Shown one piece after another: positions 20,371 to 25,210 of a stretch of 64,000 nt of DNA. Source of the stretch: Balneolaceae bacterium (GTDB taxonomy: Bacteria > Bacteroidota > Rhodothermia > Balneolales > Balneolaceae). Each line of letters starts with the position of its first letter. The stretch's first letter is position 1. The notes below the pieces were generated by a model. The model did not search any database. It was not told where the DNA came from and saw only the letters and a list, made by a program, of their open reading frames with translations. The position numbers and the translations under genes are program-made. The DNA lies in contig SLKI01000008.1 in the NCBI GenBank assembly GCA_007134695.1, positions 62,001-126,000 on the forward strand, in the 5' to 3' direction.

Positions 20371-20479
20371 CTATTCGCTGCCGCTCATTTCAGTAAAAGA
20401 AACCGGATTGCGAAGCCTCGCCGGTTTTGGAAGAAAATTATGACTCACCTATATTGAGCCGAAATGTTAAACAAAACGC

Positions 20480-20521
20480 ATTGTCACCTGCCATCATAAA
20501 ATTGTCACCTGCCATCATAAA
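20480..20521 (+). repeat. Exact 21-bp tandem duplication before the S10 peptidase start
   Basis: Two identical 21-bp units beginning ATTGTCACCTGCC occupy 20480-20500 and 20501-20521, ending one base before the ATG I assign to the peptidase. In the peptidase frame they would read LSPAIIK-LSPAIIN, but this probably lies in the untranslated leader. Confidence 0.95.
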
Positions 20522-20522
20522 T

Positions 20523-22082
20523 ATGAGGAAGATGAACCGAAATCGAACTGTTCAACTCGCCCCGAAATTCAAATTTTCAACTTTAACTGCCTGGTTCTCC
20601 GCTTTTTCATTGCTGTTAGCCGTTATGATTCTGCCGAATGACAGCGAAGCTCAAGAGAGGGTCCTCGAAGCAGAAAGCAGTGTCACGTCGGAACATGAAG
20701 TGACAATTAAGGGAGAACGAATCCAATATACAGCCACAGCCGGCACCCAGCCGGTCTGGGGTAGTGACGGCGTTGCAGAAGCGTCGCTCTTTTATGTCTA
20801 TTATGAACGACAGGGGGTAGAAGATAAGTCCAGAAGGCCGCTCGTCTTCTCATTTAATGGGGGGCCCGGGTCAGCTTCAGTCTGGATGCATATCGGATAT
20901 ACCGGCCCCAGATTTCTTGAAATCGATGAAGAGGGGTATCCGATCCAGCCCTATGGAGTTGTTGAAAATCCTCATTCCATCCTGGATGTAGCCGATATCG
21001 TATATATCGACCCCGTCAATACCGGCTTCTCAAGAATTCTGGACCCGGATGCGGATCGTTCAAACTTTTTCGGGGTGAATGCCGACATCCGTTATTTGGC
21101 AGACTGGATCGATAATTTCGTCTCCAGGCATAACCGATGGACTTCTCCGAAATATTTGAAAGGGGAGAGTTATGGCACGACCCGTGTAGCAGGGCTGGCC
21201 AACCGGCTCCAAAATTCTCACTGGATGTATATCAACGGAGTAATTCTGGTCTCACCGACCGGCCTGGGCCTGGAACCACCAGCAATGAGCCCCAGGTCAG
21301 AAATACTGAAACTGCCCTATTACGCGGCCACAGCCTGGTATCACGAAGCACTGGATCACGATTTGCAGCAGCAGGATCTTTATGATTTTATGCCCGAAGT
21401 GGAAGAGTTTACGATAGAAACCTACCTTCCGGCGGTTGCCCGCGGAGGAAGCCTGAGTGAAGAGGAGAGAGCTAATATCGCCGAATCGGTGTCAAAGTAT
21501 TCCGGAATCGACAAGCAACATGTGCTCGATTACAACCTGACGATTCCGACATCGTTTTACTGGAAAGAGCTGTTAAGAGATCGCGGTCAGACAGTAGGCC
21601 GACTGGACTCCCGATATCGCGGAATCGACCGAAGTGACGGAGGCGAACGTTACGATCACGATCCTGCGCTCACCTCCTGGAACCATACGTTTACACCGGC
21701 GATCAATCACTATTTGAGAGAGCACCTCGGGTATGAAACCGACTTGCAATATAACATTTTCGGACCGGTACACCCCTGGGACAGAAGCAACAATACAACT
21801 GGTGAGGATCTGCGGCGTGCCATGGGGCAAAATCCCTGGATGCAAGTCCTGGTTCAGTCCGGCTATTATGATGGTGCCACAGACTATTTTTCAGCCAAAT
21901 ATGTGATATGGAATATGGACCGAAGCGGAAAGGTACAGGATCGTCTCCATTTTGAAGGGTATCGAAGCGGCCATATGATGTATCTGCGGCATGAAGACTT
22001 GGAGACCTCGAACCAGCATATCCGCGAGTTTATTCTCAACAGCATACCGGAAGAGGGTACACCGGCCATGTATGAAAGATAA
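20523..22082 (+). CDS. Serine carboxypeptidase, peptidase family S10
   Basis: Removes C-terminal residues from peptides; exported. From the ATG at 20523 it is 519 aa with a basic N-terminus and a hydrophobic signal segment at about residues 17-36 (LTAWFSAFSLLLAVMIL), followed by SEAQ as probable cleavage region. The oxyanion-hole motif FSFNGGPGSASVWMH and catalytic Ser216 in GESYGTTR are present. The probable catalytic Asp454 is in YYDGATDYF and His484 in RSGHMMYL. A longer reading from a TTG at 20427 would add 32 residues before the signal peptide and run through the 21-bp duplication; I reject it for that reason. It converges with the bactofilin gene (29 bp apart). Confidence 0.9.
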   Translation: MRKMNRNRTVQLAPKFKFSTLTAWFSAFSLLLAVMILPNDSEAQERVLEAESSVTSEHEVTIKGERIQYTATAGTQPVWGSDGVAEASLFYVYYERQGVEDKSRRPLVFSFNGGPGSASVWMHIGYTGPRFLEIDEEGYPIQPYGVVENPHSILDVADIVYIDPVNTGFSRILDPDADRSNFFGVNADIRYLADWIDNFVSRHNRWTSPKYLKGESYGTTRVAGLANRLQNSHWMYINGVILVSPTGLGLEPPAMSPRSEILKLPYYAATAWYHEALDHDLQQQDLYDFMPEVEEFTIETYLPAVARGGSLSEEERANIAESVSKYSGIDKQHVLDYNLTIPTSFYWKELLRDRGQTVGRLDSRYRGIDRSDGGERYDHDPALTSWNHTFTPAINHYLREHLGYETDLQYNIFGPVHPWDRSNNTTGEDLRRAMGQNPWMQVLVQSGYYDGATDYFSAKYVIWNMDRSGKVQDRLHFEGYRSGHMMYLRHEDLETSNQHIREFILNSIPEEGTPAMYER

Positions 22083-22111: not shown

Positions 22112-22648
22112 TTACCAGAAATGGTCACCGTAAGGGTCCGGTTTCCTGCTCTCATCTTTTTCATCCTCTGTTGCCGAGCTGCCGTTTTCCACCCCATCTT
22201 TTTTGATTGAATCGGAAGTTTCGGGTGTAGGGGTAGACGAAGTGTCTTTTGGTTTAGCATTTTTGGCAACTGGCGTCTCTACAACAGCTTTTTCGTGACG
22301 GTTATCCGCCAAGTGGTTAACGGCAGCTTCAAATTGGCAATAAGCCCCCTCTTCGATTTCAACTGAATGGGAACTGATCGAACCATACAGATAAGCTGTA
22401 CTGAAGATACGGGCTTTTTTTTCAACCCATACATTACCTTCGATACGACCGTAAAGTACCAAATCTCTCGCTTTGACATTCCCTCTGATTTCTGCGTCCT
22501 GATCGATGACCAGTTTGCCGTCGCATTCGACGTTCAGCGCCACTTCTCCTGAGATCCGGCTGCTGGACGGCAGATAGAGTTTATTTTCCCGGATTCGGGT
22601 GCCTTTTGCAAGCAGAGTAACTGCGTTCTGCCTCTCCAATTTCTTCAT
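22112..22648 (-). CDS. Bactofilin-type polymer-forming cytoskeletal protein
   Basis: A self-assembling beta-helical filament protein that positions cell-shape or envelope machinery at the membrane. The bactofilin core is at about residues 30-110, with the six-residue strand rhythm visible in SGEVALNVECDGKLVID, IRGNVKARDLVLYGRIEGNVW and YLYGSISSHSVEIEEGAYCQF. It is flanked by a short N-terminal segment and a long, probably disordered tail rich in Glu, Lys, Pro and Thr (about 120-178). It sits 101 bp downstream of the actin-like ATPase gene on the same strand, so co-transcription and joint function are likely but unproven. M23 peptidase genes, frequent partners of bactofilins, are not adjacent here. 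Confidence 0.9.
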   Translation of the reverse strand: MKKLERQNAVTLLAKGTRIRENKLYLPSSSRISGEVALNVECDGKLVIDQDAEIRGNVKARDLVLYGRIEGNVWVEKKARIFSTAYLYGSISSHSVEIEEGAYCQFEAAVNHLADNRHEKAVVETPVAKNAKPKDTSSTPTPETSDSIKKDGVENGSSATEDEKDESRKPDPYGDHFW

Positions 22649-22749
22649 CGCACTTTTTTATACTTCTTCACAGGAGCCGCCTCACATGGGATCCTGTGAT
22701 CCATTTTTGAATAGTATATCTTCCTCTGAAACCTGTCGAAGAGTCCGGA

Positions 22750-23778
22750 TCAGATTCCCGCACTGGAATCAATCACGCTGACGGTTGTATTGGCATTGCC
22801 GATATCGATACCGACAGCTGCTGCAGCAGAACCACCCTTGTTACGGGAACGGATGCAATAGCCCCGGCTAGTAACCGTGGCTGGATTTTCAGCCACTTCA
22901 ATATTGACAAAACTGTCGAACTCTCTTCGGAAACTGTCGACCAGTTCCGGATAATTTGCACCCCCGCCAATCAACAATATGGTATTGGCACGATCAAAAT
23001 CGTCGTCACTCCAGGTATTTCTCATAAGGGGAGAGATCACATCCTCATAGTAATGAGCCAGTGCCTGCCGCCGAATCTCTGTAAGATCGATACGCTTTCG
23101 GTTGAGAATTATATTACCGGCCTGAAATGCCGTATCGAATTGCTGCTCCGTGCGCAAACCTACATAATAATCCCGCATCAGCCGCTTCATGGCCCAATCG
23201 ATTGCATAGCGCAGTCCGTTTCCGGAAGCTTCGGTTCGCTGAATAACTCCTTTGTCGGTACTAAGGCCGATTTCCGTCGTACCGTAACCCATACTCACCA
23301 TAAAGAAATTTCCGGTCCGCTGATCTTCGCCGCTTCGCATGGCAATAATACCGCCGATCAATTCCGGAATCACTTCGACCCGGTTTACCGAGATCGGCTG
23401 AACCAGATGATCACTGCCGCCGAAGGGCCGGGTATCGTATGTGACAGATTCTATGCTGTTGAAAAACTCAACTGCGGGTTTTTTGTTGATATTGATCGTC
23501 GAGTATGGGAAACCGGTTGTAATAACCATCGGTTCCTTTACAAAGTTTGATGCGGTCAACAGACTTGCTTTGGCCAGCAGTTGATAGTCGAGCTCATCAA
23601 CAGAACTGTTGATCGCTTTGTGAGGATTTTTACCCTCTACCAGGGCCAGGTCCCCGATAATGTAATCTTCCTCACCTTCACGGATCTTCATACCGGTAAG
23701 TTGATCACGTGAAACGTTCTGTAGTTCGGATCCCTGACTCTGGATCAGGCTGGGGAAAGTCGTCGTTCGGATTCGCAT
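22750..23778 (-). CDS. Actin-like ATPase with circularly permuted motif order
   Basis: A member of the ParM/Alp/Ta0583-like actin family by pattern: FPSLIQSQG (8-16), EEDYIIGDLALVEGKNP (36-52), MVITTGFPYSTI (84-95), VIPELIGGIIA (136-146), phosphate-2-like VSMGYGTTEIGL (161-172), adenosine motif ILLIGGGANYPELV (267-280) and the usual C-terminal ENPATVTSRGY (297-307). The canonical first element is missing at the N-terminus. Instead it is at the end: after the linker NKGGSAAAA (313-321) comes VGIDIGNANTTVSVID (322-337), a perfect phosphate-1 motif with Asp325. Upstream codons reach a stop 12 codons before the ATG without encoding such a motif, so it is not a mis-set start. The phosphate-2 Asp appears replaced by Ser162. 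The 342-aa length equals a normal family member. Bactofilin follows. Confidence 0.85.
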   Translation of the reverse strand: MRIRTTTFPSLIQSQGSELQNVSRDQLTGMKIREGEEDYIIGDLALVEGKNPHKAINSSVDELDYQLLAKASLLTASNFVKEPMVITTGFPYSTININKKPAVEFFNSIESVTYDTRPFGGSDHLVQPISVNRVEVIPELIGGIIAMRSGEDQRTGNFFMVSMGYGTTEIGLSTDKGVIQRTEASGNGLRYAIDWAMKRLMRDYYVGLRTEQQFDTAFQAGNIILNRKRIDLTEIRRQALAHYYEDVISPLMRNTWSDDDFDRANTILLIGGGANYPELVDSFRREFDSFVNIEVAENPATVTSRGYCIRSRNKGGSAAAAVGIDIGNANTTVSVIDSSAGI

Positions 23779-24016: not shown

Positions 24017-25210
24017 TCAGTTCGAACTATTTACTTGTGAATCTGATCCTTGCCGTAAAAACCTGTGGATGATCCTGTCAGCCAGGTAAACGGATCCTCC
24101 CAGAAGCGTTAAAAAGAGGAGGCTTAGTTGTGGCTGCCAGATAACCAGGCCTCCGATAGTACCGAGCAGAGCTCCCAGGTATTGAATATATTTCAGCTGT
24201 TCGTTAACTGCCCGAAGGATCATCTTTTCCAGGTTACCGTGATCAAACTGCATAAGACTTTGTTTAACGATCGAATGTACATCCAGACGGTTGATCAGTC
24301 GATTGAGCAGAGCCAGAAGCTGACGATCGATCTCCTCACCATGTCTGTGCAACTCTTCCGGCAGAGTATCGAGTGTCGAGTCGAGATGATAGAGCTCCTT
24401 CTCAATGATGGAAGGTAATCGGTCCAACGCCTGTCCAACCAGATCTGCCAGTTCGACTCCCCGAATCATGCTGTAGGTTTTAAAAGCGGTTCGTTCAACA
24501 ATTCGGTTTTCGAGAGCAAGATCAATTTCTTCAGCCAATTTCTTAGAAAAGGTGCTTCGAAATTGACGATTACCAAGTATTGTTTCGGTATAATCGATGA
24601 GCCATCGTTTCAGATCCCGTCGAAATTCGGGCTGTTCCACTATTTGTCCGATTCTGACAGCACCATACTCTCTGTACCGTGTAATCATACCGGAGTCACG
24701 GAGATTTGATTTGATAATTTCCGGATTGATCAGATCCTCCGATACGGCTGTAGCAAGTCTTCGGGCTACACGCTCTTTTTGTGCTGGCAGTAATCCCTGA
24801 CCGAGGATCGGACGTTTCTCCGATGGCCGGAACAGCATCGTAATGGCAAGCCAGTTGGTCAGAAAACCGATCAGCCCGCTCACCGAGACAATTCGCAATA
24901 AACCGTCGAGAGGATAGGAATTTCCGATTATCAAGATTCGGCTGTCGTTGAAATCCCAAAAAAATGAAGCGAGAAATGAGAAAGCCAGAACCCAGGGAAG
25001 CATTGATAGAAGGGTCAATCCCAAACTGTACCTGCGTGAGGGAGCAGGTTCGGTCGAACTATCCCTTCTGTTTGCTGTTATTAAAGGATCGGCCGGTTGA
25101 TATTTCCGGATCAATCTTAAAAATTTACGTATAAAAAGGCCGGTTACACGTAAATTTTTATTTGCAGCGCTCGAATTGCCGCTTCCTGAACTTTGTTGTT
25201 TTGTACTCAT
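24017..25210 (-). CDS. DUF445 family membrane protein
   Basis: A membrane protein of the DUF445 (YjiN/YheB-like) family of unknown function. After a hydrophilic N-terminus (about 65 residues) there are two membrane segments (about 66-90 and 108-128). They are followed by the family signature IGFLTNWLAITMLFRPSEKRP and GLLPAQKERVARRLATAVSEDL. A long helical, probably coiled-coil region covers about 170-340 (domain repeats of LADLVGQALDRLP and KQSLMQFDHG type). A final hydrophobic hairpin (about 345-385) completes it. The 397-aa length is normal. It lies 149 bp after ybeY on the same strand. Confidence 0.88.
   Translation of the reverse strand: MSTKQQSSGSGNSSAANKNLRVTGLFIRKFLRLIRKYQPADPLITANRRDSSTEPAPSRRYSLGLTLLSMLPWVLAFSFLASFFWDFNDSRILIIGNSYPLDGLLRIVSVSGLIGFLTNWLAITMLFRPSEKRPILGQGLLPAQKERVARRLATAVSEDLINPEIIKSNLRDSGMITRYREYGAVRIGQIVEQPEFRRDLKRWLIDYTETILGNRQFRSTFSKKLAEEIDLALENRIVERTAFKTYSMIRGVELADLVGQALDRLPSIIEKELYHLDSTLDTLPEELHRHGEEIDRQLLALLNRLINRLDVHSIVKQSLMQFDHGNLEKMILRAVNEQLKYIQYLGALLGTIGGLVIWQPQLSLLFLTLLGGSVYLADRIIHRFLRQGSDSQVNSSN

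Follow-up and report, generated by a model that had tools for sequence, protein, structure and literature searches.

The genome of a Balneolaceae bacterium harbours, next to a gene for a dedicated partner bactofilin, a gene for an actin-like protein which, according to its sequence and predicted structure, is circularly permuted. In canonical actins the phosphate-1 hairpin opens the chain, while in this protein, which we name cpALP (circularly permuted actin-like protein), it is located at the C-terminus. The conserved association of a bactofilin with a permuted member of the actin superfamily appears to be new, and the combination suggests a two-polymer cytoskeleton which was previously undescribed.

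The gene pair

The window analysed here is a stretch of 64,000 nt (contig SLKI01000008.1, positions 62,001 to 126,000). A preliminary description had reported an actin-like and a bactofilin gene in tandem on one strand with a 101-bp gap, and this arrangement holds: both genes are on the minus strand, cpALP (342 aa) at 22750..23778 and the bactofilin gene (178 aa) at 22112..22648, separated by the intergenic region 22649..22749. The flanks had been described as convergent or divergent. This is right on the 3’ side, where a serine carboxypeptidase-like gene on the plus strand (20427-22082) is convergent with the pair, but not on the 5’ side, where a DUF445 gene on the minus strand (24017-25210) has the same orientation as the actin gene, at a distance of 238 bp. 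As judged by eye, the DUF445 gene is not prominent as a common neighbour in the related loci listed. A weak promoter-like match is present in the gap between the two genes (22739-22711); such sites occur in the region in about the number expected by chance, and terminator matches are likewise at about chance level.

The bactofilin matches PF04519 with its residues 11-104 (22337..22618, minus strand; E = 3.5e-18, 66.1 bits, cut-off 27.9) and is thus a member of this family. The classification of cpALP relies on its match to ALP_N (PF17989; E = 9.4e-8, 32.8 bits, cut-off 26.3), on an AlphaFold2 model, on Foldseek and on a check of the upstream codons. Its scores against MreB (PF06723; 16.4 bits, cut-off 27) and against the ParM family model NF010498 (25.6 bits, cut-off 417) are below the respective cut-offs.

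Circular permutation of the actin-like protein

The window protein begins at the strand which follows the phosphate-1 hairpin, and the hairpin itself, VGIDIGNANTTVSV, is found at residues 322-335 of 342 (22774..22815, minus strand), a C-terminal instead of N-terminal position that is supported by conservation, predicted strands and rotation tests. The motif order phosphate-2, adenosine, phosphate-1 was found in all 36 distinct relatives with an intact C-terminal end (a 37th, L055, was left out because its end is cut by the contig), and none of them shows the canonical N-to-C order phosphate-1, phosphate-2, adenosine. In the same 36 proteins the phosphate-1 residues G323, D325, G327, N328 and T331 are invariant. 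The permutation had been overlooked in the preliminary description.

When the tail of the window protein was placed in front, its match to ALP_N, which without rotation starts at profile position 16 with the score given above, started at position 1 with 41.8 bits. Rotation also helped two distant members, from 34.7 to 42.8 bits and from 47.5 to 53.4 bits, so that the gain in the three proteins was 9.0, 8.1 and 5.9 bits; their unrotated matches start at profile positions 16, 21 and 18, and at position 1 once rotated. With truncated constructs, 43.9 bits were obtained with the real tail, 33.6 without a tail and 34.6-35.8 with five shuffled tails, one of which likewise extended the match, to profile position 3. 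ALP_N was detected at E<=0.1 in 12 of the 15 members of the actin family set. In 117 genomes of the class, all 11 ALP_N matches start at profile position 16-21 (this PF17989 search under-counts, the window’s own gene having been missed), compared to positions 1, 1 and 2 in three canonical plasmid proteins.

The reciprocal comparison was made with the family profile. Its rotated version scored higher than the unrotated one on PRTRC-D (66.2 vs 56.9 bits) and on a ParM-like protein of Polaromonas (42.5 vs 38.5 bits), with no gain on ParM/StbA of Alteromonas (36.7 vs 36.6 bits). In a PDB search, the profile aligned to BiP out of order, with profile positions 316-338 corresponding to BiP 18-40, 129-182 to 185-239 and 251-288 to 335-374, every stretch being weak when taken singly.

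Predicted fold and active site

The AlphaFold2 model, computed from the window protein and 14 relatives, has an actin-like fold (pLDDT 86.1, pTM 0.88) with C-terminal strands at residues 320-326 and 330-336. In space, the hairpin of this model would occupy the phosphate-1 position. A second member, L025, was modelled together with its bactofilin; its actin half is predicted to have the same C-terminal hairpin, and the bactofilin half of this prediction has a pLDDT below 50. The best Foldseek match of the cpALP model is pCBH ParM (E = 1.7e-13), and the nearest solved folds are pCBH ParM (6ixw/6izr), Dh-cParM1 (8x1i), Ta0583 (2fsj), CorM and BeeR. VIA-align gave Z = 26.2 for Dh-cParM1 (rmsd 3.0, 305 residues), 23.9 for CorM and 21.8 for BeeR. 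In line with a two-domain actin fold, Z was at least 20.3 in all 50 structural alignments shown. In each of these 50, the aligned range of the model stops at residue 312-320 and that of the target begins at residue 18-59. The aligner is sequential and the model after residue 312-320 is outside its alignments; an unaligned model end together with an unaligned target start is what would be expected of a permutation under such an aligner. A sequence search of the PDB with the window protein alone gave no match, while the search with the family profile did.

The adenosine motif LLIGGGAN (residues 268-275; 22954..22977, minus strand) retains GGG in 36 of 36 relatives, and Glu139 (23362..23364, minus strand), which we take to correspond to the catalytic Glu of ParM and MreB, is also Glu in 36 of 36. 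ATP binding by cpALP is therefore likely. The phosphate-2 motif FMVSMGYGTTE (residues 159-169; 23272..23304, minus strand) differs: alignment to the Asp of BiP and Dh-cParM1 places Ser162 at the position of the canonical Asp, and among the 36 relatives this position is occupied by Ser (32), Gly (3) or Asn (1). In actins the phosphate-2 Asp matters for the Mg/ATP chemistry, and judging from actin, Hsp70 and ParM its loss should weaken hydrolysis. Thus, ATP hydrolysis by cpALP may be weak, and a strongly dynamic filament should not be assumed. The dynamic, ATP-driven filament which had been proposed for this protein finds no support in the sequence.

Distribution and conservation of the pair

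The occurrence of cpALP is patchy. With the window’s genome counted in each case, it was found in 8 of 58 relatives by a single-sequence search, in 31 of 244 genomes of the class and in 24 of 395 genomes of the phylum, of which six do not belong to the class. The 36 distinct proteins have a median identity of 43%, and the lowest value is 34%.

A bactofilin gene adjoins cpALP or lies in the same gene row in 27 of the 36 cases, across families of Bacteroidota. It is located downstream on the same strand in 23 (with a gap of at most 440 bp in 22 and of 1012 bp in L013), directly upstream in one (L022) and beyond a TPR gene in three. Fodinibius halophilus and Aliifodinibius salipaludis, for example, have cpALP with a bactofilin, and Rhodohalobacter sulfatireducens has it without. 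The nine loci lacking a bactofilin belong to two clades, a Rhodohalobacter-type group with six and one other genus with three. Whole-genome search in eight genomes of these clades revealed one bactofilin without aromatic end in each of seven, and none in the remaining genome, which is 62% complete. Since bactofilin-bearing genomes of the class contain only one to four bactofilin genes, the pairing in 27 of 36 loci exceeds chance.

On the tree, the label paired or unpaired changes three times, and one change is due to L070, a locus too short to include its bactofilin, which is found in L073. The simplest history would thus be an old pair which was lost in two clades. The proposal that the two genes form one module is well supported by these data, because the pair is kept at actin identities down to 34% and the partner has a C-terminal end of its own type (see below). 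Its expected conservation in relatives was borne out where the actin gene is present, but the actin gene itself is scattered and the two clades mentioned above have it unpaired.

Two further observations were made on the family. Genomes of one family (f18; L049-L054, L080 and L081) contain two cpALP types, each with its own bactofilin, and two copies are present in three genomes. The permuted actin encoded at L048:1363-2748 has 461 aa, and both of its ends carry long extensions.

The aromatic C-terminus of the partner bactofilin

The tail of the bactofilin in the window ends with His-Phe-Trp (22115..22123, minus strand). An aromatic last residue was found in all 24 complete bactofilins which are adjacent to cpALP, Trp in 20 and Phe in four. 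The linkers of these 24 proteins do not align and their ends vary (HFW, KLW, IEW, VDW, LLF). By comparison, none of 59 control rows ends in Trp, Phe or Tyr. The controls comprise 11 rows from loci outside the class search, 26 rows from the 25 loci which gave the best-scoring matches in that search, and 22 rows from 20 places chosen by hand from the class list, with second and lower-scoring copies included. One place is present twice (two ORFs, L095 and L113), and with the 57 rows which are distinct by place Fisher’s test gave 4e-21, a value that ignores shared ancestry. Among the controls are a short bactofilin (L110, G005) whose genome gave no cpALP match, the second short bactofilin of a cpALP genome (L111, G024), and three bactofilins which lie in a cpALP gene row but are not adjacent to cpALP. 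The latter three, which are linked to M23 peptidase genes, end in Pro, Lys and Arg, suggesting that the aromatic tail is dispensable in some cases. We propose that the aromatic end is a contact to cpALP.

In the Fodinibius group the partners (L023:7032-7379, L024:7062-7406 and L025:7033-7389) have shrunk to 114-118 aa and have kept the aromatic end. The bactofilin profile has 98 positions, of which the L025 partner matches 34-96, roughly two thirds, and such short partners may not polymerise alone. Tandem bactofilin genes were also seen in loci without cpALP (L112:668-2239 and L113:655-2322); there, the longer protein (331-337 aa) ends with YSYLEN or YSYVGN.

Linkage to M23 peptidase genes

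In three Bacteroidota genomes, genes for an M23 peptidase, cpALP, a TPR protein and a bactofilin form a row which is followed by ATP-synthase genes (L072:5477-9304, L073:7484-11407 and L074:6450-10285). The bactofilins of these rows are ordinary and lack the aromatic end. The window genome contains an M23-bactofilin pair by its ATP-synthase genes (L084), without cpALP. M23-bactofilin adjacency has been reported for 226 species, and in Hyphomonas and Rhodospirillum such pairs are described as taking part in morphogenesis (PMC10945521). A second source gives self-polymerisation as a trait of the bactofilin family and names SpmX and PadC-ParA among the partners to which bactofilins bind with their C-terminal tails (PMC12364344). 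Taken together, the M23 linkage, the role of bactofilin-M23 pairs in morphogenesis and the partner-binding tails make a function of the cpALP-bactofilin module in wall or cell shape the best guess, in which we have modest confidence. For the cell-shape role suggested in the preliminary description the support is indirect and comes from these three gene rows.

The window genome has a strong MreB match elsewhere (464 bits) and two weaker matches to the MreB profile, and thus possesses a shape actin apart from the module. The idea that cpALP replaces MreB was rejected for this reason.

Comparison to known systems

With ParM-type proteins (pCBH ParM, Dh-cParM1, Ta0583, PRTRC-D) cpALP has in common the fold and the domain families ALP_N and MreB-like_C, and PRTRC system protein D can be aligned to the rotated family profile over almost the whole length. 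It differs from them by the C-terminal phosphate-1 hairpin, the lack of the phosphate-2 Asp, the chromosomal location and the bactofilin partner. Identity is 16-18% to these ParM-type structures and, in partial-length alignments, 22-27% to plasmid proteins. Searches of plasmid proteins retrieved distant canonical ParM-like proteins, while a search of phage proteins and a scan of viral contigs gave no relative of cpALP. Chromosomal ParMs are already known (PMC12270681), and the available portion of that source makes no mention of permutation or of bactofilin. Actin-like proteins with solved filaments, BeeR of Verrucomicrobiota and CorM of Anabaena (the latter known here by its PDB title), also serve for comparison. 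BeeR is described as a protein of unknown function with an additional disordered N-terminal extension, which is not a permutation (PMC11929497). No permuted actin was found in the open-licence literature searched.

In BacA-LmdC operons, which combine a bactofilin with an M23 peptidase, the bactofilin is a scaffold of wall remodelling. This arrangement is found at L084 as well, and at L072-L074 with cpALP inserted. In contrast to it, the partner of cpALP in the window is a second, dedicated bactofilin, which has the aromatic end and is encoded away from the M23 locus. A possible likeness to ParM-ParR (4a62, by its PDB title) is the binding of an actin-like protein by a C-terminal peptide present in many copies. 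Here the carrier of the putatively binding peptide would be a bactofilin, and the likeness is an analogy.

Proposed mechanism and alternative explanations

We propose that circular permutation of a chromosomal ParM-type actin transferred the phosphate-1 hairpin from the start of the chain to its end; tandem duplication, fusion and trimming are the probable route. The nucleotide site would then be closed by the chain’s own end. The bactofilin core may serve as a static scaffold, and its disordered tail would display the terminal Trp or Phe along this scaffold. Most likely, the tail would dock on cpALP, comparable to the C-terminal peptide of ParR on ParM, and docking may recruit or nucleate the actin at the bactofilin site. 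In this way the module would probably position cell-wall remodelling and thereby influence shape. As a whole, a module of a permuted, ParM-like chromosomal actin and a dedicated bactofilin, with tail docking and a role in shape, is the best explanation, and we consider its chance of being correct to be slightly better than even. The more specific proposal, that the permuted actin has retained the ability to polymerise and that the aromatic end captures it, resulting in a two-polymer cytoskeleton that organises wall growth in scattered Bacteroidota, is tentative and its chance is somewhat below even.

It is less probable, but deserves consideration, that the module is real but that the membrane or a third partner, and not cpALP, is bound by the aromatic tail, the contact between actin and bactofilin being elsewhere. 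The tail ends are indeed short and variable, and other bactofilin tails bind varied partners (PMC12364344). However, the aromatic end tracks adjacency to cpALP (24 of 24 against 0 of 59 rows) and is no general property of bactofilins. Replacement of the phosphate-2 Asp in all 36 relatives would also fit a non-polymerising, nucleotide-sensing switch which regulates bactofilin assembly, somewhat like FtsA does with FtsZ, and so would the shift of both chain ends to the nucleotide side of the fold, as it appears in the predicted structure. We regard such a switch as rather unlikely, since the closest folds include the filament-forming ParMs (6ixw/6izr, 8x1i), CorM and BeeR, and since Glu139 and the adenosine motif are invariant.

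A system for segregation of the chromosome or a replicon, with the bactofilin in the role of the ParR adaptor, is improbable. It would be in agreement with plasmid ParM/StbA and PRTRC-D proteins being the nearest canonical relatives by sequence, and with the link of bactofilin to PadC-ParA in Myxococcus reported in PMC12364344. Against it, Pfam revealed no ParR-like, DNA-binding adaptor gene among the five neighbours scanned, the two non-coding stretches searched for a parC-like array of direct repeats contained only a two-copy 11-nt repeat, and the association with M23 peptidase genes in three genomes suggests the wall instead. Finally, the C-terminal motif could be a chance look-alike or reflect a sequencing or start-codon error in an ordinary truncated actin, and the window genome is indeed a 2.71-Mb draft in 129 contigs. 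This explanation is already contradicted by the identical motif order in all 36 distinct relatives, whose sequences come from many assemblies; moreover, only 11 codons, without a phosphate-1 motif, separate the upstream in-frame stop from the start codon in the window, and the controls with shuffled tails and rotated profile speak against it. We consider it extremely improbable.

The existence of a conserved permuted actin would mean that the ends of the chain can be relocated within the actin fold in nature. cpALP would thereby offer a natural experiment on the part played by the phosphate-1 hairpin and by the chain ends in polymerisation and hydrolysis. Last, the aromatic end makes the proposed link between two cytoskeletal polymers testable by removal of a single residue.
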